A stretch of 46,563 bases of DNA from a bacterium (GTDB lineage: Bacteria > Armatimonadota > Zipacnadia > Zipacnadales > UBA11051): the NCBI GenBank assembly GCA_030604405.1, contig JAUVVY010000034.1, forward strand, positions 1 to 46,563, read 5' to 3'. Position 1 is the stretch's first letter; the number at the start of each line of letters is the position of its first letter. A program made the translations under genes and the position numbers. The notes beneath the pieces were generated by a model. The model was not told the origin of the DNA. It made no database searches and saw only the letters and a list, made by a program, of their open reading frames with translations. Shown here piece after piece: positions 229 to 46,563 of the stretch.

Positions 229-361
229 GACGCGTAGCGCGGCCTGAGCTTTCGGTTGTTTCGAAAGCTCAGGTGAGAACGGAAAAGGCCAGGCTTTTTC
301 CGTTCTCAGCTTCCCGTTCGACAGGCTCACGGCCCTGAGCAACGTCGAAGGGCAGCCCGCG
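229..361. repeat. Modular nested-hairpin repeat, copy A
   Basis: The element opens GACGCGTAGC. It has a 12-bp perfect stem (243-254 with 262-273), then GTGAGAA, then a second 12-bp stem (275-286 with 296-307), then CAGCTTCC. The same order is seen at 18802-18879 (reverse strand) and 45344-45420, but with different stem sequences that still pair. A further palindrome built on TTCGAC/GTCGAA fills 316-352. No gene lies in 129-483. Confidence 0.7.
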
Positions 362-443: not shown

Positions 444-483
444 CAGCACAACGCAGTCCGGTATCTTGAGGAGGGCGCAAAAG

Positions 484-3400
484 ATGTCCGAGAGACTCGT
501 TGTCAGCTTGCTCATGAGTATGCTTGTACTCTCTGTCGCGTCAGGTGCACACGCCAAGAAGTGCAGCAGATTCGTGACCGCAGAAATGCGGGCCAATGTG
601 CTGGCGAACGTCGAGAAGTTCGAGTGGGCCGCAGGTACTCAGACAAGCGCCATATCAGGTGCCAAAGCGTGGGTAGAACTCAGCGACGACGAGCTGTGGG
701 AGATGATTACCTCTCAGGAACTGCCCCGTGCCGACATCACCAACAAGGGCGTCCTCTACGAGGGCAAGAAACCCGGCTGCCCCAACTGCGGCGACGAGGC
801 GCTGAAACATGGCATGCGCTGGTGGAAGTACGACCCGATAAATGCGCCGTGGCAGGCGAAATGTCCCAACTGCGGCGAGGTCTATCCCAAGAACGATTTC
901 TTGGCTTTCTACAAGACTGCCCTTGACGAACATGGCATGTTCCGGCGCGAGCTTGGCGACCGCTCCCTGCTTTTCAACGCCGAGCACCCCGACCCCAACG
1001 ACCCGTTGCACAAGGTCTATGTGGATGACGGGTACGGCATGGTGGACGAGCAGGGCAATACGCATCACATCATCGCGGCTTACTGCCAGTGGTCGCACTG
1101 GCGCCGAATCTATGGGGGGTTGGACGGTCTGGCGCGGGCTTATACACTCACAGGTGATAAGCAATACGCTCACAAGACGGCGGTGCTCCTGGATCGGATC
1201 GCTGACGTTTATCCGGAGATGGATTACAAACCGCTGCATGACCTGGGCTTTCAGCACAGCCAGGGCGGCACCGGCCAGGGCCGCATCGAAGGTTGCATCT
1301 GGGAGACCCGTGTGGGGCAGAGGTTTGCGCGTGCCTATGACCTGATATACGACGGCATCCAGGACGATGATGAGTTGGTGCGATTCTGCTCAGAGAAGGC
1401 TAGGGAATACAAACTAGGCGACAAGAGCAGCGCCGCAAGCATCTGCACGCACATCGAAGACGATCTGCTTGTCGAGATACTGGAATCGTGCAAGGACGGC
1501 CACATCAGGGGCAACACGGGCATGACGCACAGTTGCCTGGCCACTACTGCAATAGCTCTGGACCGGGACCAGGTAACTGTGGAATGGCTCGACTGGCTAT
1601 TCGATCCTGACTACCCGGGTGAGTACAACAGGCACAAAGACCCCATCCCCTGGGTGCTGGTCGAGGGCCTGGACCGTGACGGAATGGGCGGCGAGTGTGG
1701 TGGTTACGGGCTGATCTGGACCAGCAGTTTTATAGCACTGGCCGAGATCCTGGCGGCGTACCCGGAATATACGAACCACGACATGGTCGCCGAATTCCCG
1801 AAGCTCAAACAGACTTTCTTCATCGAGCCGCGGCTGAATTGCCTTGACGCTGTGATGCCAAGTATCGGCGACAGCGGGGCGACCGGCACATGGGGACGCA
1901 GAGGCCGGGCCTCCACCTACATGCGCGGCTATAAGCTCTACAAGGACCCGAAGCTGGCGAACCTGGCATGGCGAGAGTCATCCGAACATGGCTCGTCGCT
2001 GCGACTCCCAGGCGACATCTTTGCGGAGGATCCCGATGCGCTGATTGATGAAACCAAGCAGATTGCTCAGGCGGAGCCATTCAAGCTCAAGTGCGACTAC
2101 CTGGGGCGCTACGGGCAGGCTTATATGCAGACCGAGAGTGCAGTTGACGGCCGCGCCTTGTGGATACATTACGGCTACCGCAAAGGCCACTCACACGCCG
2201 ATTGTCTCAATATTGGCCTGTTCGCAAACAATATCGCTATGATGCCGGAATTGGGCTACCCGGAGTACACGGGAAGCTGGCCCAAACGAGGCGCGTGGAC
2301 CTCGAACACCATCAGCCACAACACGCTGCTGGTGAACGATACCAGATCGGGCTACAGCCCTGGCGGCAAGCTCAACTTCTTCGTCGTGCAGCCGCCACTG
2401 CGGGCTATGGATGTCAGCTCAAAGACAGCCTACCAAGACCTGCAGACCTACCGGCGGACCGTTGCCCTGGTGGATATTGCGCAGGCGGACAGCTACGTTT
2501 TCGACGTATTCCGCGCCCGCGGTGGCAACAACCACCGGCTTTCCTACCACGGAGCGGCTGAAACCGCAACGATCGAAGGGATATCGCTGGTCAAGCAGAC
2601 CACAGGCACCTTCGCCGGGCCGGATGTGGAGTTCGCCATGCTTGAAGGCGAGCAGGCCGGCTTCTACAAGAAGAGTGGCTTCACACATCTCTATGATGTG
2701 GAGCGGTCTGCCGACCCCGTGGACAGTTACTTCACCGTTGACTGGAAATGCGAGGACCTGCGCGGCCGCATCAAGGCAGGTAAAGAGCCGCACCTGCGCC
2801 TGCATTCTCTGAGTACCTCCGACGAGGTGGCCCTGGCCAGTGGCGATCCGCCGCAGAACAAAGGCGGCAACCCCCGCCGGCTGCGTTACCTGCTCCAGAG
2901 CCGCCTGGGTGAGAATATGGAAAGCCAGTTCGTCACCGTGCTGGAGCCGTATGACACGACCCCGTTGATTAAGCAGGTTCGGAAGCTAGAGGTCGAGCAC
3001 GATGCGGATCCCAATTCGGTTGCAGCGGTGGCGGTTGAGCTATTAGACGGGACAACCGACATACTGATAAGCTGCGAGGAGCCGACGCAGGTCAAGGTCG
3101 AGGGCGGGATTGAATTCGATGGCCAGTTTGGCATGATTCGCCTGGTGGACGGCGAGGTAAAGCTGATGCGCATGAGCAACGCAGTGCTGCTGAGGGTTGA
3201 CGAGGTCACGCTGACGGCCGATCGGGCCGCATACGAAGGCAAGGTCACCAGGATTGACGCCGCCGACGCGCAGAATAACCTGGTGTTTCTCGATCCACCG
3301 TTGCCCCAGGACGTTGAGATGGTCGGCCACACCATCCACTTCAAGAACGATCTGCCTCTGGACACCAGCTATAGAATCAAGGCCGTAACTGAGCAGGGCA

Positions 3401-3528
3401 TTTCCACCGGCGACATTACGATCATCCAGGGCTTCAAGGATGCCTCCGACTTTGCGGCAGGCTACAAGTACCTGGTCAACGTCGGCGACGAATATGCGGT
3501 GCCGTGCTCCGTGGGGCTGGACCGGTGA
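484..3528 (+). CDS. Secreted heparinase II/III-like polysaccharide lyase (paralogue 1)
   Basis: The protein is 1014 aa and probably an exported lyase acting on an acidic polysaccharide. The ATG at 484 is preferred over a TTG at 466 because AGGAGG lies nine bases before it and the paralogue starts at the same residue. A signal peptide (about 1-24) ends AHAKK. A zinc-ribbon-like pair of CPNC motifs sits near residues 98 and 126. An alpha/alpha-toroid-like middle follows. The heparinase II/III beta-sandwich carries GHSHAD near 568 and NTISHNTLLVND near 609. The family normally acts by beta-elimination; the substrate here is unknown. A close paralogue follows 95 bases downstream. The C-terminal part (after about 750) has no assigned role. 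Confidence 0.8.
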   Translation: MSERLVVSLLMSMLVLSVASGAHAKKCSRFVTAEMRANVLANVEKFEWAAGTQTSAISGAKAWVELSDDELWEMITSQELPRADITNKGVLYEGKKPGCPNCGDEALKHGMRWWKYDPINAPWQAKCPNCGEVYPKNDFLAFYKTALDEHGMFRRELGDRSLLFNAEHPDPNDPLHKVYVDDGYGMVDEQGNTHHIIAAYCQWSHWRRIYGGLDGLARAYTLTGDKQYAHKTAVLLDRIADVYPEMDYKPLHDLGFQHSQGGTGQGRIEGCIWETRVGQRFARAYDLIYDGIQDDDELVRFCSEKAREYKLGDKSSAASICTHIEDDLLVEILESCKDGHIRGNTGMTHSCLATTAIALDRDQVTVEWLDWLFDPDYPGEYNRHKDPIPWVLVEGLDRDGMGGECGGYGLIWTSSFIALAEILAAYPEYTNHDMVAEFPKLKQTFFIEPRLNCLDAVMPSIGDSGATGTWGRRGRASTYMRGYKLYKDPKLANLAWRESSEHGSSLRLPGDIFAEDPDALIDETKQIAQAEPFKLKCDYLGRYGQAYMQTESAVDGRALWIHYGYRKGHSHADCLNIGLFANNIAMMPELGYPEYTGSWPKRGAWTSNTISHNTLLVNDTRSGYSPGGKLNFFVVQPPLRAMDVSSKTAYQDLQTYRRTVALVDIAQADSYVFDVFRARGGNNHRLSYHGAAETATIEGISLVKQTTGTFAGPDVEFAMLEGEQAGFYKKSGFTHLYDVERSADPVDSYFTVDWKCEDLRGRIKAGKEPHLRLHSLSTSDEVALASGDPPQNKGGNPRRLRYLLQSRLGENMESQFVTVLEPYDTTPLIKQVRKLEVEHDADPNSVAAVAVELLDGTTDILISCEEPTQVKVEGGIEFDGQFGMIRLVDGEVKLMRMSNAVLLRVDEVTLTADRAAYEGKVTRIDAADAQNNLVFLDPPLPQDVEMVGHTIHFKNDLPLDTSYRIKAVTEQGISTGDITIIQGFKDASDFAAGYKYLVNVGDEYAVPCSVGLDR

Positions 3529-3623: not shown

Positions 3624-6600
3624 ATGGCTGAGAGACTTATGGTTGGTTTGCTGATGAGCGTGCTCGTACTCTCTGCAGGCTCAGAGGCACATGCCAAACA
3701 GTGCAGCAGAATCATAACCGCAGAAATGCGGGCCAATGTGCTCGCGAACGTCGAGCAGTTCGACTGGGCGGCCAACGAACAGAACAGCGCCATATCCGGA
3801 GCCGCGTCATATCTGGAAATAACGGATGACGAGCTCTGGGAGATGATACCCTCCCAGTGGCTGCCGCGCGATATCCACACCAACAAGGAGGCCGGCTGCC
3901 CGAACTGCGGTAACGATATCTTTCCGTACGGCAATTACCCGTGGAAGGCCGGCGGCGAGTGGAAGCTGAAGTGCCCCAACTGCGGCGAGGTCTATCCGAA
4001 GAACGATTTTTCGGCCTTCTACAAGAGCGCGCTGGATGAACACGGCTTTTTCCAGCGGGAACTGGGCGACCAATCGCTGCTGTTCAATGCCGACCACCCC
4101 GACCCTAACGACGAATTGCACAAAGTCTATGTGGATGACGGCTACGGCATGTTTGACGAAAAAGGCGTCAAGCACCGCCCTATCGCCTACTACAACTCGT
4201 GGATACACTGGGCCAAGATAAGGCGAATCCTGGGTAGCTTCGCGCGGGCCTATACGCTTACATCGGACCCCAAATATGCGCACAAAGCCGCCGTGATGCT
4301 CGACCGCATCGCCGATGTCTATCCCGACATGGACTTCAAGCCGCTGTCCGACATGGGCTTTGAGCACTCACACGGAGGCTCAGGCACAGGGCGCATCCTG
4401 GGACGCATCTGGGAGGCGGGCATGGCGCAGTCAATGGCTCAGGCCTACGACCACATCTGGGACGGGATCCAGGACGATCCGGAGCTTGTCCGTTTCTGCT
4501 CGGACAAGGCCGCGGAGTTCAACCTGGGCGACAAGAGCAGCATCGAGGCGATCTGCAAACACATCGAGGACGACCTGGTATCGGAAATCCTCGCCTCCTG
4601 TACCGACGGGCGCATCGGCCCCAATCTCGGCGGTATGCAGATAACAGTGTTGCTGACGGCGGTGGCGCTCGACCGCCCCGAGGAGACCCTGGAGTGGCTC
4701 GATTTTCTGTTCGATCCGGGCTTCCCCGGTGGGCCGAATACCTGGGAGAAGCCGGTGAACTGGATACTGGTGGAGGGCATTGACCGCGACGGCATGGGTG
4801 GCGAGTGCGGCGGTTACGGTCTCGGCTGGACCCGCCGGGCGGTCACTCTCCCCGATCTATTCGCCATATACCCGGACTATCATGGGCATGACCTGGTGGC
4901 CGAGTTTCCCAAGCTGAAGCAATGCTTCTACATCGAGCCGCGCCTGATGTGTCTCGACGCCGCCATGCCCAACATCGGCGACAGCGGAGCGGCGGGAACG
5001 TGGGGCCGCATCGGTAATGCCCGGACCTTTGCTCTCGGCTACCGGCTCTTCAAGGACCCGCACATGGCCGCCCTGGCCTGGCGCTACGCCGGCGAGAACG
5101 CTGCGCGCCTGCGGACCGCCAACGACATCTTCAGGGAGGACCCGCTGGCACTGGCCAATGAGATCGCAAGCGTTGCCAAAGCAGAGCCGTTTAAGCTCAA
5201 GTGCGATCACCTCGGCCGCTACGGACAGGCTTACATGCAGACCGAGCAGCCCGAGGATGGCCGCGCCTTGTGGATACACTACGGCTACGCTAAAGGCCAC
5301 TCCCACGCCGATAACCTCAATATCGGCCTTTACGCAAAAAACCTGGACATGCTTCCCGACCTCGGATACCCCGAGTACACCGGCGGATGGCCGAAACGAG
5401 GCGCATGGACCTCGAACACCATCAGCCATAACACGCTGCTGGTCAATGACCACAGGGCGAACTCCAGTGCCGGCGGCAAGATCAACCTGTTTGCGGTGCA
5501 GCCGCCGCTGCGTGTGATGGATGTGGAATCGAAAAACGCCTACAGCGGCCTGGAAACGTACAGGCGGACGGTGGCGCTTGTGGACATCTCAGAGACTGAC
5601 AGCTACGTTTTCGATGTGTTCCGCGCCCGCGGCGGCAATAACCACCGTCTCTCATATCACGGTCCCGCTGAGACGGCCACAGTCTCTGGCATCGAACTGG
5701 TCAAGCAGGCAACCGGCACCTTTGCCAGTCCGGATGTAGAGTTCGCCACACTCGACGGCGAGCAGGCCGACTTCTACAAGAGGAGCGGCTTCACGTATCT
5801 GTACGATGTGGAGCGGACCCAGCAGCCGGTCAGCGATTATTACACCGTTGACTGGAAAGGCGAGGACCTGCGCGGCCGCATCAAGGCAGGCAAAGAGCCG
5901 CATCTGCGCCTGCATGCACTCACGCCCTGTGATGAAGTCGCCCTGTGCAGCGGCGATCCGCCGCAAAACAAGCGTGGCAGCCCGCGCCGGCTGCGTTACC
6001 TGCTCCAGAGCCGTCTGGGTGAGGATCTGGAGAGCCAATTCGTTACCGTGCTGGAGCCGTATGACACGACGCCGTTGCTCCGCCAGGTGCGACTGTTGCA
6101 GGTTGAGCATGACGCCGACCCCAATTCGGTCGCCGCCGTAGCTGTGGAATTATTGGACGGGACAACCGACATCCTGATAAGCTGTGAGCAGCGGACACAG
6201 GTCAAGCTCGAGGGCGGTATCGAGTTTGATGGCCAATTCGGCATGATTCGCGTGGTGGACGGCGAGGTCAAGCTCATGCGCATGAGCAACGCGACGTTGC
6301 TGAGCTGCGGTGATGTCGAGCTAGTCGCGGAGCAGGCCGCCTATGAGGGCACCGTCACGGCAATTGACGCCTCGGATGCGCAGAGCAACCTGGTATCCCT
6401 TGACCCGCCGTTGCCGCAGGATGCCAGCCTCGTCGGCCAGACAATCCATTTCAAGAATGACATACCGATAGACACCACCTACGATATAGAGGCCGTCACA
6501 GCCGAGGGGATTTCGACCGGAGACATTACCGTAATCTGGGGCTTCAAGGACCTTGCAGATCCCGGTGCCGGGTACAAGTACCTCGTCAATGTCGGCGACG

Positions 6601-6638
6601 AATACGTCGTACCGTGCAGTGTGGGGCTGGACCGCTGA
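3624..6638 (+). CDS. Secreted heparinase II/III-like polysaccharide lyase (paralogue 2)
   Basis: The protein is 1004 aa and collinear with the gene just upstream, with long identical blocks, especially in the C-terminal half. It has a signal peptide ending near AHAKQ, two CPNC zinc-ribbon motifs, GHSHAD near residue 558 and the NTISHNTLLVND block. The start is supported by GGAGG at 3612-3616. The pair is a tandem duplication. Divergence is concentrated in the N-terminal toroid, for example the stretch between the two CPNC motifs, which may tune the substrate cleft. The next gene, a PP2C phosphatase, begins 52 bases later on the same strand. Confidence 0.8.
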   Translation: MAERLMVGLLMSVLVLSAGSEAHAKQCSRIITAEMRANVLANVEQFDWAANEQNSAISGAASYLEITDDELWEMIPSQWLPRDIHTNKEAGCPNCGNDIFPYGNYPWKAGGEWKLKCPNCGEVYPKNDFSAFYKSALDEHGFFQRELGDQSLLFNADHPDPNDELHKVYVDDGYGMFDEKGVKHRPIAYYNSWIHWAKIRRILGSFARAYTLTSDPKYAHKAAVMLDRIADVYPDMDFKPLSDMGFEHSHGGSGTGRILGRIWEAGMAQSMAQAYDHIWDGIQDDPELVRFCSDKAAEFNLGDKSSIEAICKHIEDDLVSEILASCTDGRIGPNLGGMQITVLLTAVALDRPEETLEWLDFLFDPGFPGGPNTWEKPVNWILVEGIDRDGMGGECGGYGLGWTRRAVTLPDLFAIYPDYHGHDLVAEFPKLKQCFYIEPRLMCLDAAMPNIGDSGAAGTWGRIGNARTFALGYRLFKDPHMAALAWRYAGENAARLRTANDIFREDPLALANEIASVAKAEPFKLKCDHLGRYGQAYMQTEQPEDGRALWIHYGYAKGHSHADNLNIGLYAKNLDMLPDLGYPEYTGGWPKRGAWTSNTISHNTLLVNDHRANSSAGGKINLFAVQPPLRVMDVESKNAYSGLETYRRTVALVDISETDSYVFDVFRARGGNNHRLSYHGPAETATVSGIELVKQATGTFASPDVEFATLDGEQADFYKRSGFTYLYDVERTQQPVSDYYTVDWKGEDLRGRIKAGKEPHLRLHALTPCDEVALCSGDPPQNKRGSPRRLRYLLQSRLGEDLESQFVTVLEPYDTTPLLRQVRLLQVEHDADPNSVAAVAVELLDGTTDILISCEQRTQVKLEGGIEFDGQFGMIRVVDGEVKLMRMSNATLLSCGDVELVAEQAAYEGTVTAIDASDAQSNLVSLDPPLPQDASLVGQTIHFKNDIPIDTTYDIEAVTAEGISTGDITVIWGFKDLADPGAGYKYLVNVGDEYVVPCSVGLDR

Positions 6639-14675: not shown

Positions 14676-14807
14676 GGCTCGTCACCGCCGATCTCTTCAC
14701 CTTCCGCGTAGCTCGGGCTTTCACTGTAGTTGTGCAGATTCATGATGCTACTAGAAGAAGCGCCCAGACCTTTTTCAGGCAATTTCATTGCCAATTCGGT
14801 GGCCATT

Positions 14808-14967
14808 GGAGGGGCCGTGTCGAACGGCGGACGTTGTTTGTCCGACGTGAGCCCGGCCCGCGCAGGGCGCTATCCTGGTGCGCTCTGGACACTGAAACGG
14901 CCAGCAACAACGGCTGGGCCAGACTTGGCCACTTCGCTGCACGAAGTGGCCTGCGGCAGGCCCCTCC
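14808..14967. repeat. 160-bp structured repeat, copy 1
   Basis: The ends GGAGGGGCC (14808-14816) and GGCCCCTCC (14959-14967) pair perfectly. Inside are a GTCCGACG-type hairpin near 14825-14847 and CCACTTCG-CTGCA-CGAAGTGG at 14929-14949. A second copy lies at 46364-46523. The rest of 14676-15070 holds no gene I can support. It contains a TCGGGCTTTCACTGTAGTT block (also at 34813) and a short AGCCCGACCTACGCG piece. Confidence 0.75.
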
Positions 14968-15070
14968 ATTACGACTAACGGCTGCGGACAATCACCTCAA
15001 AACAAAAATTGCTCAAAATCTGCATAAGTACAGTAGAAAGCCCGACCTACGCGTCGGTGAATGATGCAGC

Positions 15071-16282: not shown

Positions 16283-16311
16283 GAGTCTTCTTCCTCTCTT
16301 TATTTGCGTAG

Positions 16312-16330
16312 GTCAGGCTTACAGCCCGAC
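16312..16330. repeat. Short GTCAGGCT/AGCCCGAC hairpin repeat
   Basis: GTCAGGCTTACAGCCCGAC, preceded by TGCGTAG. It is the minimal form of the modular repeat family, also at 17656, 22034 and 26248. It lies in the 149-base gap between glycerate kinase and the isomerase gene. Confidence 0.6.
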
Positions 16331-16431
16331 GCCGTCAGGGATTGGTGTCAGAACAAGAGCCACATCCCGATCGCGGTCACATTTCCTGCTATCTCTAGTT
16401 CGCCGGCCAGGGCAAAAGCCCTCCTGGCAGT

Positions 16432-17635: not shown

Positions 17636-17655
17636 GAGTCTGTTTGCCCCAGGGA

Positions 17656-17674
17656 GTCAGGCTGGAAGCCCGAC
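17656..17674. repeat. Short GTCAGGCT/AGCCCGAC hairpin repeat
   Basis: GTCAGGCTGGAAGCCCGAC followed by CTGCGCG, a minimal member of the modular repeat family. Confidence 0.55.
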
Positions 17675-17698
17675 CTGCGCGACGATCAGTCAATCGAG

Positions 17699-18647: not shown

Positions 18648-18801
18648 ATAGAATGCGTGGCTAGCATGGATCTCATGTTGTACTTCTCCGTGCCGGCGAT
18701 TAGTCCTCCAACAACTGTCCGCTTTTTTGGAGCCGTGTGAAACAGTTGCCTGGGGGGTGCGGGTTCAGATTCTTGGTAAATGGAAAGATGTACGCCACTG
18801 A

Positions 18802-18879
18802 CTCGGGCTGGAAGCTGAGAATGCTAACGCATTCTCACCTGACCTGCGCCTGGCGCAGGTCAGGCCGAGCTACGCGTCT
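18802..18879. repeat. Modular nested-hairpin repeat, copy C (reverse)
   Basis: CTCGG/CCGAG outer ends enclose GAGAATGC-TAAC-GCATTCTC (18817-18836) and a 13-bp stem around a single base (18838-18850 with 18852-18864). The flanks GGCTGGAAGCTGAG and GCTACGCGTC match copies A and B on the opposite strand. It occupies part of the gap 18617-19045, which holds no supported gene. Confidence 0.7.
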
Positions 18880-18948
18880 GGTGGAGGAGGTGGAGGACGA
18901 GTACCGAGTTTGCCGACAGTCTAAACTCGCCCCCCTGAGGGAGGCAAA

Positions 18949-21988: not shown

Positions 21989-22033
21989 TGAGCAGTTACT
22001 CTATCCCGTCGGGCACCCGCGCCGAATGCGTGG

Positions 22034-22052
22034 GTCAGGCTTCCAGCCCGAC
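22034..22052. repeat. Short GTCAGGCT/AGCCCGAC hairpin repeat
   Basis: GTCAGGCTTCCAGCCCGAC preceded by ATGCGTGG, just upstream of the ribosome-binding site of the FAH-family gene. Confidence 0.6.
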
Positions 22053-22075
22053 ACCGAAAAGAGGAGACACTCTCT

Positions 22076-23434: not shown

Positions 23435-23519
23435 AAATTGGGGACAGTCGCCTATTTCTGCAGAGGAGCGGGAGTGGGACTTAGACAAATAGCAAGAAAT
23501 AGGTGACTGTCCCCAATTT
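23435..23519. repeat. Inverted repeat of the GGGGACAGTCACC type, copy 1
   Basis: The 25-base arms 23435-23459 and 23495-23519 pair with one G:T difference; the core is GGGGACAGTCGCCTATTT. The loop is 35 bases. The same arm sequence ends carA at 33808-33889. It lies between rpsT and murJ. Confidence 0.8.
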
Positions 23520-26192: not shown

Positions 26193-26247
26193 GAGCAAGC
26201 GACGGGCCGCGAAGCTCCGGCCGCAGTTGCCTGCATCTTCCGCGTGG

Positions 26248-26266
26248 GTCGGGCTGCCAGCCCGAC
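26248..26266. repeat. Short GTCGGGCT/AGCCCGAC hairpin repeat
   Basis: GTCGGGCTGCCAGCCCGAC preceded by CGCGTGG, in the leader of lepA. Confidence 0.6.
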
Positions 26267-26304
26267 ACCGCGGGCCAAACGAAGGAAACGCGATCCATCA
26301 CATC

Positions 26305-32624: not shown

Positions 32625-33872
32625 ATGAAAAAGGCGATACTGGCTCTGGAAGACGGCACCGTATTTGAGGGCTATTCATTCGGTGCTGAGGGAACGACCA
32701 CCGGCGAGGCGGTTTTCAACACCGGCATGACCGGCTACCAGGAGGTCCTGACCGATCCGTCATACCGCGGCCAGATCGTGACCATGACCTACACCCAGAT
32801 GGGCAACTACGGCATCAACCCCGAGGATATGGAGTCGTGGCGGCCGTGGGTGGAGGGCTTTGTGGTGCGGGAGAACTCGCTGCTACCGAGCAACTGGCGC
32901 GCTACCATGAGCCTCGAGGAGTACCTGAGCGACAATAACATCGCCGGTATCGAGGGTATTGACACCCGTATGCTGACCAAGCACCTGCGCACCTACGGGG
33001 CGCAGAACGGCATCATCACGACGGACATGACGGACCCGCAAGCAGCTGTACAAGCCGCCAGGGATGCTCCATCAATGGAGGGTTCTGACTACGTCATGGA
33101 CGTCACCTGCGCGGCGCCTCGACGCTGGATTGGCGAGGGCTATGACGAGACCACACCGGTGCCGGATCGGCAGTTGCAGCTTGATGTTGCCGGCGAACCC
33201 AGCCGCCAGCCGCAGGCGGTCTCATTCGATGGCCAGCCCTACCAACCCCGCCGCCACTACCGCGTCGTGGTCATAGACTGCGGCGTGAAGCAGAACATCC
33301 TCCGCCACCTCTACAGCCGGGGTTGCGAGGTCATTACGGTGCCGGCCGACGCCACAGCCGAGCAGGTGCTGAGTTGGAATCCTGACGGCGTGGTGTTTTC
33401 GAATGGGCCGGGCGATCCCGAAGCGCTCGACTATGTGATACGGACCGCGCAGGGAGTGCTCGGCAAAGTGCCCGTGTTCGGCATCTGCCTGGGCCACCAG
33501 ATATTGGGCTGGGCGCTGGGTGGCACAACCTTCAAGCTTAAGTTCGGTCACCGCGGCTGCAATCACCCCGTCAAGAACCTCAGCACCGGGCAGGTGGAGA
33601 TAACTACGCAGAACCACGGCTTCTGCGTTGACCTCGACAGCCTCCCCGACACTGATGTCGAGGTCACTCACATCAATCTCAACGACGACACGCTTGAGGG
33701 CATGCGGCACAAGCAGTTACCGATGTTTTCCGTCCAGTACCACCCCGAGGCCGGCCCTGGCCCGCACGACTCAGACTATCTGTTCAACGACTTCATCGCC
33801 CTGATGGAAATTGGGGACAGTCACCTATTTGAGAAGAATAGCAGTGCGACTCAGAGAAGCGGCAATAAATAG
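32625..33872 (+). CDS. carA: Carbamoyl-phosphate synthase small subunit
   Basis: The protein is 415 aa; relatives are near 380. It supplies ammonia from glutamine to CarB. Seen: LALEDGTVFEGYSFGA, FNTGMTGYQEVLTDPSY, the class I amidotransferase domain with FGICLGHQ (C288), and VQYHPEAGPGPHDS. The natural end should be near FIALME. Residues about 395-415 are encoded by an inverted repeat (33808-33889) whose right arm provides the TAG. A start ATG follows a purine-rich stretch (GAGGGTAGGA). carB is not adjacent; the next gene is an RNase H-like protein. Confidence 0.92.
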   Translation: MKKAILALEDGTVFEGYSFGAEGTTTGEAVFNTGMTGYQEVLTDPSYRGQIVTMTYTQMGNYGINPEDMESWRPWVEGFVVRENSLLPSNWRATMSLEEYLSDNNIAGIEGIDTRMLTKHLRTYGAQNGIITTDMTDPQAAVQAARDAPSMEGSDYVMDVTCAAPRRWIGEGYDETTPVPDRQLQLDVAGEPSRQPQAVSFDGQPYQPRRHYRVVVIDCGVKQNILRHLYSRGCEVITVPADATAEQVLSWNPDGVVFSNGPGDPEALDYVIRTAQGVLGKVPVFGICLGHQILGWALGGTTFKLKFGHRGCNHPVKNLSTGQVEITTQNHGFCVDLDSLPDTDVEVTHINLNDDTLEGMRHKQLPMFSVQYHPEAGPGPHDSDYLFNDFIALMEIGDSHLFEKNSSATQRSGNK

Positions 33873-33889
33873 GTGACTGTCCCCAGTCT
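33808..33889. repeat. Inverted repeat of the GGGGACAGTCACC type, copy 2, ending carA
   Basis: Left arm AAATTGGGGACAGTCACC (from 33808) and right arm GGTGACTGTCCCCAGT pair over about 21 bp around a 36-base loop. The left arm, the loop and part of the right arm are translated as the tail of CarA; the stop codon is at 33870-33872 in the right arm. Confidence 0.8.
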
Positions 33890-33913
33890 CCAACTCGAAG
33901 GGGATAAAGTTAG

Positions 33914-34247: not shown

Positions 34248-34715
34248 ATGACCGATCAGCGTGCTGGAATTCCTACTCACGCCCTGGTCAGCGCCGTGGA
34301 AGCCGCCGACTGTGGCCGAACCGGCATCGCCGTCATTTTGCGCGATCAGCAACGGGACACTGTTTACTCTACCAGCTACAGCAAACAAGACACCCCGGTC
34401 GAAGCAGCAGCGTATGAAGCAATTTCCGAGGCACTGCTCACCGCACGTGAGTCGGGATCGCATGCAATGACGGTTTACTGCGATGTGGCGTCGGTAGTCT
34501 CACAACTGAATAAGGAAGAGGAAGTCCCTGCAGAATTGCTGTCCAAGAACCTGCAGGTGCGGGCCCTGTTCAACAGGTTCCGTTACGCCAAGGTCAAACT
34601 GGCGCAGTCAGGGGACTACTTCATCGCCCACAAACTGGCGGCGGGCGCGGCGCAGGGCTGCACCGGGCAAGTCCCGGCTCAGCCGACGCTCCGGCTGCCG
34701 CTGAACACCACGTAA
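34248..34715 (+). CDS. RNase H-like fold protein, probably inactive
   Basis: The protein is 155 aa. Its order of strands and helices follows RNase HI/RVT_3: GRTGIAVILRDQQ, then EAAAYEAISEALLTA (Glu conserved), then AMTVYCDVASVVSQLN (Asp conserved). The first catalytic Asp (DG motif) and the last (here His in IAHKLAAGAA) are not seen, so nuclease activity is doubtful. GGAGGT precedes the ATG. The last 12 or so residues (AQPTLRLPLNTT) come from a repeat that continues past the stop codon. Confidence 0.6.
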   Translation: MTDQRAGIPTHALVSAVEAADCGRTGIAVILRDQQRDTVYSTSYSKQDTPVEAAAYEAISEALLTARESGSHAMTVYCDVASVVSQLNKEEEVPAELLSKNLQVRALFNRFRYAKVKLAQSGDYFIAHKLAAGAAQGCTGQVPAQPTLRLPLNTT

Positions 34716-34814
34716 GCCCCAACGGGTTGGGCAGATGTGTTAGGTACAACTGCCTCAGACAGCTAACCGTCTGAGGCAGTTTGCAGCCTTGATGAATCAT
34801 CATTGGGTAACTCG
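34679..34814 (+). repeat. 136-bp direct repeat, copy 1
   Basis: It is highly similar to 37285-37419, in the same orientation. It holds CCCAAC-GG-GTTGGG and a 13-bp stem around AGCTAACC (34748-34781). The other copy has the loop GGTTGGCT, nearly the reverse complement. The first part is translated as the end of the RNase H-like protein. The stem may serve as a terminator but lacks a long T run. Confidence 0.8.
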
Positions 34815-37284: not shown

Positions 37285-37419
37285 TCAGCCGACGTTCCGG
37301 CTGCCGCTGAACCCACATAAGCCGCAACGGGTTGGGTAGATGTGTAAGGCCGAACTGCCTCAGACGGTTGGCTGTCTGAGGCAGTTTGTAGCCTTGATGA
37401 ATCATCATTGGGTGACTCG
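37285..37419 (+). repeat. 136-bp direct repeat, copy 2
   Basis: It begins 39 bases after the CarboxypepD_reg gene. The 13-bp stem 37353-37365/37374-37386 has the same sequence as in copy 1, while the loop is inverted. The rest of the gap 37247-37581 holds only a promoter. Confidence 0.8.
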
Positions 37420-45260: not shown

Positions 45261-45343
45261 TGGATATTCTCCACCTGGCCTGTACTCGCAATTGCGGAAA
45301 CGCTGCGGTCAACGGCCCGCGGCACTAGCCCGAATCATCCCCC

Positions 45344-45420
45344 GACGCGTAGCTCGGCCTGCCCTGAGCTTGTCGAAGGGCAGGTGAGAACGCATGGCGT
45401 TCTCAGCTTCCAGCCCGAGG
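45344..45420. repeat. Modular nested-hairpin repeat, copy B
   Basis: GACGCGTAGCTCGG, then CCTGCCCT (45358-45365) pairing with AGGGCAGG (45377-45384) around GAGCTTGTCGA, then GAGAACGC-ATG-GCGTTCTC (45386-45404), then AGCTTCCAGCCCGAG. Outer CTCGG pairs with CCGAG. Confidence 0.75.
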
Positions 45421-45451
45421 TCTTTTACAATCGCTTAACCAATAATCCGGG

Positions 45452-46051
45452 TTAGTCGGAGGGCGCGGGCAGCACGAGTCCAAGGCCTTCGCCGGCGGCC
45501 AATGCGTATTGCCAGAAATTCTGGTGAGCGGCTATGATAACCGCCCGCTGCGCCCATATCAGGCCCGAAGCGGTCTCGAAATGCTGCAGAAATTGCCCTC
45601 CGTCCATCAACTCGACGCGCAGAGCCGGCACGAGCGCCCGGCACCTGGCTACAATGCTGTCAGCCGCCTGGGTCTCCAAGCTCTTCAGCACCGCGATGAG
45701 CCGGTTTTCCTCCGGAAGCACTGCGATACACTCGAATGCATCCCACCGCTGAGACAGGTAGGGCCGGAGGCCGGCGGTCAGCTCAGCAGCCAGGCCGGTT
45801 GCCTGTTTTTGCTGCTCGTGGCAGAGCATGCCGAGCCACAAGGCCGTCGCGGGCGAGTTGACAAACGTGCACAGGCTTTCGCGGCCGAATCTGAAGGTTC
45901 CGAGTACTGCGAGCTTCTCGAGCTGCCTGATGTGGTAATAGATCGGCTGGTAGGATAGCTCAACGCCTCTGCAGACCGCACTGATGCTGAGCTTGCGGCC
46001 GTAGTTCGCGCGCATGTACCGCAGTATTTGCACAGCCGAAGTATGACGCAC
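45452..46051 (-). CDS. Winged-helix (ArsR-like) transcriptional regulator
   Basis: The protein is about 199 aa from GTG 46051 (start uncertain). The N-terminal part is a winged helix: AVQILRYMRANYGRKLSIS, GVELSYQPIYYHIRQLEKLAVL with the recognition helix, and TFRFGRESL as the wing. The C-terminal 120 residues (FECIAVLPEENRLIAVLKSL, SGLIWAQRAVIIAA) form an unassigned domain, possibly for ligand or dimer contact. The frame is open to 46276, but that extension runs through a block of palindromic repeats and is probably not translated. It may control the DUF4127 operon downstream. Confidence 0.55.
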   Translation of the reverse strand: MRHTSAVQILRYMRANYGRKLSISAVCRGVELSYQPIYYHIRQLEKLAVLGTFRFGRESLCTFVNSPATALWLGMLCHEQQKQATGLAAELTAGLRPYLSQRWDAFECIAVLPEENRLIAVLKSLETQAADSIVARCRALVPALRVELMDGGQFLQHFETASGLIWAQRAVIIAAHQNFWQYALAAGEGLGLVLPAPSD

Positions 46052-46363
46052 TGGCGGCCTCGGAATACGTGTCGGGCTGGAACAGTAGTTATGCAGATTT
46101 TTCGTTTGTGGTTCACGTATCTCTGATTGTTGCCGCTGGTACTGTGATGGGCCTTGGGCCGGATAGGGAACCCGGATTTTGCTTCCGCAAAATCCGCCCT
46201 GACCCACTCCTGCGGAGTGGGTACCCCGCCCCTCCGGACGACTCAACGACAACGGCGTCGGGCTGCCCTTCGACAAGCTCAGGGCCTACGGGATGCCCGA
46301 CCTACGCGCCAATGAATTGAGACGTTGCCTTTCGGCCTGTCCGCCATAGCTTTAGCGAAGGCG
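46052..46363. repeat. Array of structured intergenic repeats
   Basis: No gene is supported here. In order: a GTCGGGCTGGAACAGTAGTT block (46070s, compare 14722 and 34813); CGGATTTTGC-TTCC-GCAAAATCCG (46173-46196); ACCCACTCC-TGC-GGAGTGGGT (46202-46222); and GTCGGGCTGCCCTTCGACAA...CCCGACCTACGCG (46257-46309), another modular repeat. Confidence 0.65.
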
Positions 46364-46523
46364 GGAGGGGCCGCGTCGAACGTCGGACGTTGTTTGTCCG
46401 ACGTGAGCCCGGCCCGCGCAGAGCGCTATTCTGGCCTGCTCTGCACACCGCAACGGCCAACGACAACGGCAGGGCCAGGCTTGCAAGCTTCGCATTGCGA
46501 AGCTTGCTGCGACAGGCCCCTCC
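46364..46523. repeat. 160-bp structured repeat, copy 2
   Basis: GGAGGGGCC (46364-46372) pairs with GGCCCCTCC (46515-46523). Inside are CGTCGGAC-GTTGTTT-GTCCGACG (46381-46403) and GCAAGCTTCGC-ATT-GCGAAGCTTGC (46483-46507). The latter replaces the different stem CCACTTCG/CGAAGTGG of copy 1 at the same place. Flanking CATTACG and CTAACGGCTGC are shared too. Confidence 0.75.
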
Positions 46524-46563
46524 ATTACGGCTAACGGCTGCAGGGCACCAGCCCGGAACCAGA

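Follow-up and report, generated by a model that had tools for sequence, protein, structure and literature searches.

A REP-like repeat of a seafloor bacterium whose single strand folds as a cloverleaf

REPs are common, and the way in which they spread is poorly understood (PMC8266576). The published REPs of the GTAG class, with their RAYT/TnpA-REP enzymes (PMC2817692, PMC3733652, PMC8266576), are single hairpins of 20-40 bp, some of them with structured loops. REPINs (PMC3116915) are short hairpin-forming repeats with compensatory changes, each composed of two inverted REPs and a spacer, and a clover configuration has been proposed for them too. REP-targeting insertion sequences have also been described, among them ISPsy8, which enters at the symmetry axis of the REP hairpin and makes a 3-bp repeat (PMC1525189), and the double-hairpin elements of mitochondrial genomes have been discussed (PMC2800124, PMC4478555).

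The REP-like short repeat reported here (the module) lies in a window of 46,563 nucleotides, the whole stretch of DNA analysed, and is dispersed in its source genome (G000; 4.37 Mb, 96 contigs), where copies were read in stretches around matches. It is like the GTAG-class REPs in its GTRG head and GC-rich palindrome, its intergenic position and high copy number, and the discrimination of one strand; its genome has a RAYT too, flanked by REPs of the same class but not of the exact module core. It differs from them in three added hairpins, two within the stem and one within the loop, which give a four-way junction; the module is an unusually elaborate relative of the known REP repeats. The short forms are single simple hairpins of 20-40 nt, as in the GTAG class, whereas the long module is not. 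Unlike a REPIN, the module is one REP frame with inserts of other sequence, and no second inverted GTRG-headed REP was seen in the copies read. The insertion at palindrome axes known from ISPsy8 has a counterpart here in a 162-bp non-autonomous, module-bearing element, which makes duplications of about 8 bp and enters module stem tips. The family is a REP-derived structured repeat, neither a simple REP nor a REPIN as defined. The mitochondrial double-hairpin elements, small mobile units of adjacent hairpins, may resemble the module as well; they belong to other genomes, and we know of no GTRG/REP frame or RAYT associated with them. The literature searched contained no previous account of REPs in Armatimonadota.

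Anatomy of the module and its distribution

The earlier note on this DNA had recorded three long copies with a common frame, and these are present at 229-361 (+, copy A), 18802-18878 (-, copy B) and 45344-45420 (+, copy C). The frame reads CGCGTRGC[T/G]CGG, stem 1 (CCTG...CAGG), stem 2 (TGAGAA...TTCTCA), GCTTCC and AGCCCG. Its outer part is a REP, with a GTRG head followed by the palindrome GTRG-[C/G]TCGGGCT-TCC-AGCCCGA[G/C]. Stems 1 and 2, between CTCGG and GCTTCC, lie in the 5' arm of the REP stem and not in its terminal loop, and the GTRG single strand therefore folds to a four-way junction. The hairpins had been taken for inserts in the loop of a smaller hairpin; this does not apply to stems 1 and 2 and is correct for an optional third hairpin, often located in the terminal loop between GCTTCC and AGCCCG. 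The long module measures about 71-130 nt with four helices, the cloverleaf itself roughly 75 nt, and the tips of stem 2 can contain nested palindromes (L011, L055, L073). All three window copies fold as a four-way cloverleaf with DNA parameters; copy C does not reach it with RNA parameters. In nearly every copy of G000, G001, G002, G025 and G033 the head is GTAG or GTGG, and in L296 and the most distant relatives (L351-L354) it is GGAG or other. In the most distant relatives the arms are fully different, and the junction words and the stem 1 loop are kept.

Copy A has the head GACGCGTAGC and the outer stem CGCGG/CCGCG. Its stem 1 (CCTGAGCTTTCGG..CGAAAGCTCAGG) spans 243-273, its stem 2 (TGAGAACGGAAAA..TTTTTCCGTTCTCA) 274-308, and its third insertion (CGTTCGACAGG..GTCGAAGGGC) occupies 315-353 in the terminal loop between GCTTCC and AGCCCGC, all on the forward strand. 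A 45-bp direct repeat lies on either side of it on the same strand (179-223 and 400-444, 87% identical). Copy B, with the outer stem CTCGG/CCGAG, has its stem 1 at 18838-18864 and its stem 2 at 18816-18837 on the reverse strand, and is carried by a type IV TIR element at 18755-18934 (L007:1391-1570) with ends of about GGGTGCGAGTTTAGATTGTCGGCA. In copy C, stem 1 (45358-45384, +) has an inner part, CCCTGAGCTTGTCGAAGGG, which is a dispersed palindrome also found at 46263-46285; stem 2 follows at 45385-45405 (+), and the copy is carried by a forward-strand type I element at 45325-45455, the end points being approximate, with ends CTAGCCCGAATMATTC... and ...AATAATCCGGGTTAG. The four short members noticed earlier are likewise present, as short REPs at 16306-16334 (+, GTAGGTCAGGCTTACAGCCCGAC) and 17653-17680 (-), both without hairpin insert, and at 22028-22056 (+, GTGGGTCAGGCTTCCAGCCCGAC) and 26242-26270 (+, GTGGGTCGGGCTGCCAGCCCGAC). 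The uninterrupted REP GTRGCTCGGGCTTCCAGCCCGAG has 11 exact occurrences in the source genome.

Other repeats of the window include the inverted repeat AAATTGGGGACAGTC..AAATAGGTGACTGTCCCCAATTT, in two copies 10 kb apart (23435-23519 and 33805-33892), to which GGGACAGTCCC palindromes that recur elsewhere in the genome are related. Another repeat, about 180-370 bp long and with ends like those of a REP (GCGTAGCTCGGGCT ... AGCCCGACCTACGCG), lies at 14694-15065 and 46364-46541; part of it is found again at 46364 and at about ten sites in the congener G001. A 107-bp repeat in two copies (87%; 34708-34814 and 37313-37419) contains a long palindrome, AACTGCCTCAGAC..GTCTGAGGCAGTT. The tandem large ORFs at 466-3528 (1020 aa) and 3624-6638 (1004 aa) are apparently paralogous, with parts 71-84% identical in DNA.

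The 12-mer TTCTCAGCTTCC has 81 exact copies in the source genome vs 1 for the reversed control. A covariance model of the kind proposed in the earlier note, built from 32 copies, recovered 77-78 module copies in the source genome, in line with the dozens that the note had named as support. It found at least 104 copies in one congener, 62-66 in another and none in two other congeners, while two genomes of another family hold 22-24 and 11-14, the lower figures being those at E 1e-6. Matches at E 1e-6 occur in 10 of the 46 genomes of the class, with three congeners at 62 or more each and few matches beyond the congeners and the other-family pair. No match was obtained in the 15 genomes that belong to the phylum but not to the class. 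Named matches place the family in Candidatus Zipacnadia, Armatimonadota, a class described in PMC10290634. The module is mostly intergenic (at most 17 of 160 copies lie within an ORF of at least 100 aa), and tandem arrays with a unit of about 73 nt also occur. No match was obtained among the viral contigs searched, and no Rfam family matched at gathering score within the window. Exact-pattern matches in two MAGs, one of Cloacimonadota and one of Rhodobacter (L090, L124), do not have the frame and were set aside as chance. Three genomes (G026, G034, G036) have few matches, very like the copies of the source genome. The contig G026:C207 (L350), binned in a different family, has the same type V insertion and flank as G000:C16 (L035), a likeness that may reflect misbinning or recent transfer; the few such rows in alignment A2, three of them from G026, were given no weight in the argument.

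A REP-associated tyrosine transposase, suggested earlier as something to look for, is present: the single Y1 transposase hit in the source genome is a RAYT at G000:C2:14144 (L016; NF047646.1, E 2e-31). The gene is flanked by GTGGGTCGGGCTTTCCAGCCCGAC and an array of GTAGGGCGCGGGCTTGTACCGCGCC, which are REPs of the same class and not the exact module core. GTGGGTCGGGCTTTCCAGCCCGAC represents the REP class of the short members of the window and differs from the module core by one exchanged stem pair and a loop longer by one base. The short-member class of core, GTAGGTCGG..CCCGA, occurs in many copies of the congener G002 and in nearly all or most copies of G025 and G033, the two genomes of another family. 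The putative link between RAYT and module is one of REP class. No RAYT gene was seen beside a module copy, and Y1_Tnp hits occur in 46 of 61 genomes, module-free ones included, so that RAYT presence does not track the module among relatives. No recurrent ORF or gene was found next to module copies, and therefore no autonomous partner was identified.

Pairing and strand asymmetry

The compensatory stem changes proposed in the earlier note are borne out by both alignments. Among the copies of the source genome (n=32), 98.1% of cells are paired, 9 pairs are changed on both sides, and the covariation score exceeds all 500 shuffles. In the 89 copies from other genomes, 97.4% of cells are paired and 25 of 28 pairs are changed on both sides (450 cells; equalled by no shuffle out of 500); stem differences unmatched on the other arm, which would have spoken against the idea, are thus clearly not the pattern. 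Since the alignment was fitted to the model and the copies are related, these covariation numbers lean upwards. When the partner is slid by one column in the 89-copy alignment, pairing falls to about 40%. Compensatory change is also seen within one stem type, as in AGCTTTG/CAAAGCT, AGCGTGG/CCACGCT, AGTGTGG/CCACACT and AGCTTGG/CCAAGCT. The arm sequences turn over almost completely while pairing is kept, and the modularity of the hairpins, noticed before, holds.

Non-Watson-Crick stem pairs on the GTRG strand comprise 160 G-T vs 29 A-C over three sets (46:12, 57:7 and 57:10); the p-value of this bias is not literal because the copies are related, and the direction is the same in each set. In the inner stems alone the ratio is 28 to 2 (symmetric count, wobble ignored when setting stem limits), and the corresponding transitions, counted in an element arm that flanks the module, stand at 45:35 (14 sequences). 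The half-compensated pairs are strongly one-sided, and therefore selection sees one folded strand. As judged from these pairs, the GTRG strand is the one whose folding matters, and it is also the strand recognised by TnpA-REP enzymes in characterised systems (PMC8266576). RNA of the GTRG strand would give the same G-T bias. At least 90% of the consensus pairs are reached by 139 of 248 copies with DNA parameters and by 80 of 248 with RNA parameters, a comparison of predicted folds that leans to DNA and was not used as deciding, because both parameter sets fold the opposite strand almost as well.

Orthologous loci and carriage by TIR elements

Where the window and the congener G001 match best, their DNA is about 90-94% identical. 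Copy A is missing from its G001 site (L214), which has a single 45-bp repeat and no module; recombination between the 45-bp repeats, rather than an insertion in the source genome, could account for this absence. The ortholog of copy B has unchanged arms and one different loop base within the hairpins, and the module of copy C is identical in its ortholog (L163). Stems differ at other loci. At the locus L018/L101, the flanks are 90-93% identical and the hairpins differ at stems 1 and 2, stem 1 having the two forms ACCTGCGC..GCGCAGGT and CCCTGAGC..GAAGGG on the same CCTG/CAGG base. Further stem differences between orthologs were found at L073/L160 and L082/L152. The same loop insert as in copy A is present or absent at the orthologous loci L001/L117 and also at L082/L152. 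L057 was rejected as a clean single insertion; its G001 site has a short REP instead of the long form, but the upstream sequence differs too.

About half of the copies in the source genome have the type I left end TAGCCCGAATAATTCAC, others have ends of type III, IV or V, and about a third have no recognised TIR end, these figures being approximate owing to loose matching. Types IV and V have clear target duplications of about 8 bp. At one G001 site a module-bearing type IV element is absent and GTCGGGTGCAGCCATGCTC is uninterrupted, GCAGCCA being duplicated in the source genome; one more insertion of the source genome is missing in G001. The TIRs and target duplications by which a MITE is recognised were seen in the host elements. 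Type IV elements without the module also exist; two of 171 bp, at L120:155-325 and L371:1163-1333, have the target duplications CAATCCAA and CTCCCCGA and other internal palindromes. Type V elements (155-162 bp, TIR GTATCTGTTTAGCGT, duplications of about 8 bp) carry the module, and five of six sites of the 162-bp element are at palindrome tips with an arm score of at least 7, vs 1.8% of random positions. At three of these sites (L136, L144, L153) the tip belongs to stem 1 or stem 2 of another module copy. None of five type IV sites is at a palindrome tip. Some copies, at least, travelled as passengers of TIR elements, and so the module was not seen to move on its own. Going beyond the earlier note, these data place the module inside several different TIR elements, with one of its strands specifically under selection and with stem types that differ between orthologs.

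Explanations for the kept pairing

The earlier note had left the choice between a non-autonomous element and a structured RNA, and the former is favoured here. In the explanation to which we incline, with some reserve, the family would be a REP-derived non-autonomous repeat whose folded GTRG strand is recognised. It would gain hairpins at tips and reshuffle them among copies, besides being carried by MITEs. Its core is a GTRG-headed REP palindrome into which two further hairpins were built. The folded GTRG strand would be bound, most likely as single-stranded DNA, by an HUH enzyme of the RAYT/TnpA-REP type, perhaps the one RAYT of the genome, and recognition of the fold would keep the arms paired. 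New hairpins would enter at hairpin tips, a step seen directly for the module-bearing 162-bp TIR element with its duplications of about 8 bp, and conversion among many copies may reshuffle whole hairpins between fixed flanks. Mobility is favoured by the presence of at least 62 copies in three congeners vs none in two others. Against this explanation, the arms are unchanged in several orthologous pairs, which constraint on mobility alone does not predict, and RNA-level selection yields an equal wobble bias.

A transcribed module with a functional cloverleaf RNA (a 3' end stabiliser, a terminator or the RNA of a mobile element), paired on the transcribed strand, would agree with the covariation and G-U tolerance on one strand, and with the partial conservation across families of the loop at stem 1 (about TGTCGTTTG) and of GTGA and TCAGCTTCC as junction words. 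It is nevertheless rather unlikely, as the module has no orientation bias relative to flanking genes (43 same, 37 opposite) and no Rfam match within the window, no T-run follows the structure in those copies that were read, and the near 80 dispersed copies are patchy in congeners; the DNA-only cloverleaf of copy C also counts against it. Pairing could also be maintained mutationally, without selection, if template switching between hairpin arms at replication copies arm onto arm. The near-perfect arms of free sequence, and the orthologs that keep paired arms while their flanks differ by about 7%, fit this mechanism, which by itself leaves the one-strand excess of G-T over A-C, the conserved junction words and the GTRG head unexplained and is held to be improbable. 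The occurrence of the module inside type I, III, IV and V elements, types IV and V with clear target duplications, suits a module that is no more than an inner part of several MITE families, each spread by DDE transposases of its own, with pairing derived from hairpin insertion and ectopic conversion. However, the covariation among stems of one type with a similar loop is compensatory point change and not just wholesale replacement, and the recurrence of one and the same module in unrelated TIR families, as well as in copies without recognised TIR, suggests that it has a history of its own; this is the least probable of the alternatives, and very unlikely.

An extension of the favoured REP-derived repeat, put forward as a tentative possibility, is a self-building element. 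A module-bearing 162-bp transposon would prefer hairpin tips, those of its own family included, hairpins would be swapped between fixed junction words, and a folded single-stranded DNA cloverleaf would evolve under an HUH enzyme that reads shape over sequence. As pairing is kept on one identifiable strand despite the turnover of the arms, selection on folded single-stranded DNA is directly testable here, and orthologs with different arms, together with a tip-seeking transposon, provide a natural experiment on the assembly of complex foldable repeats.
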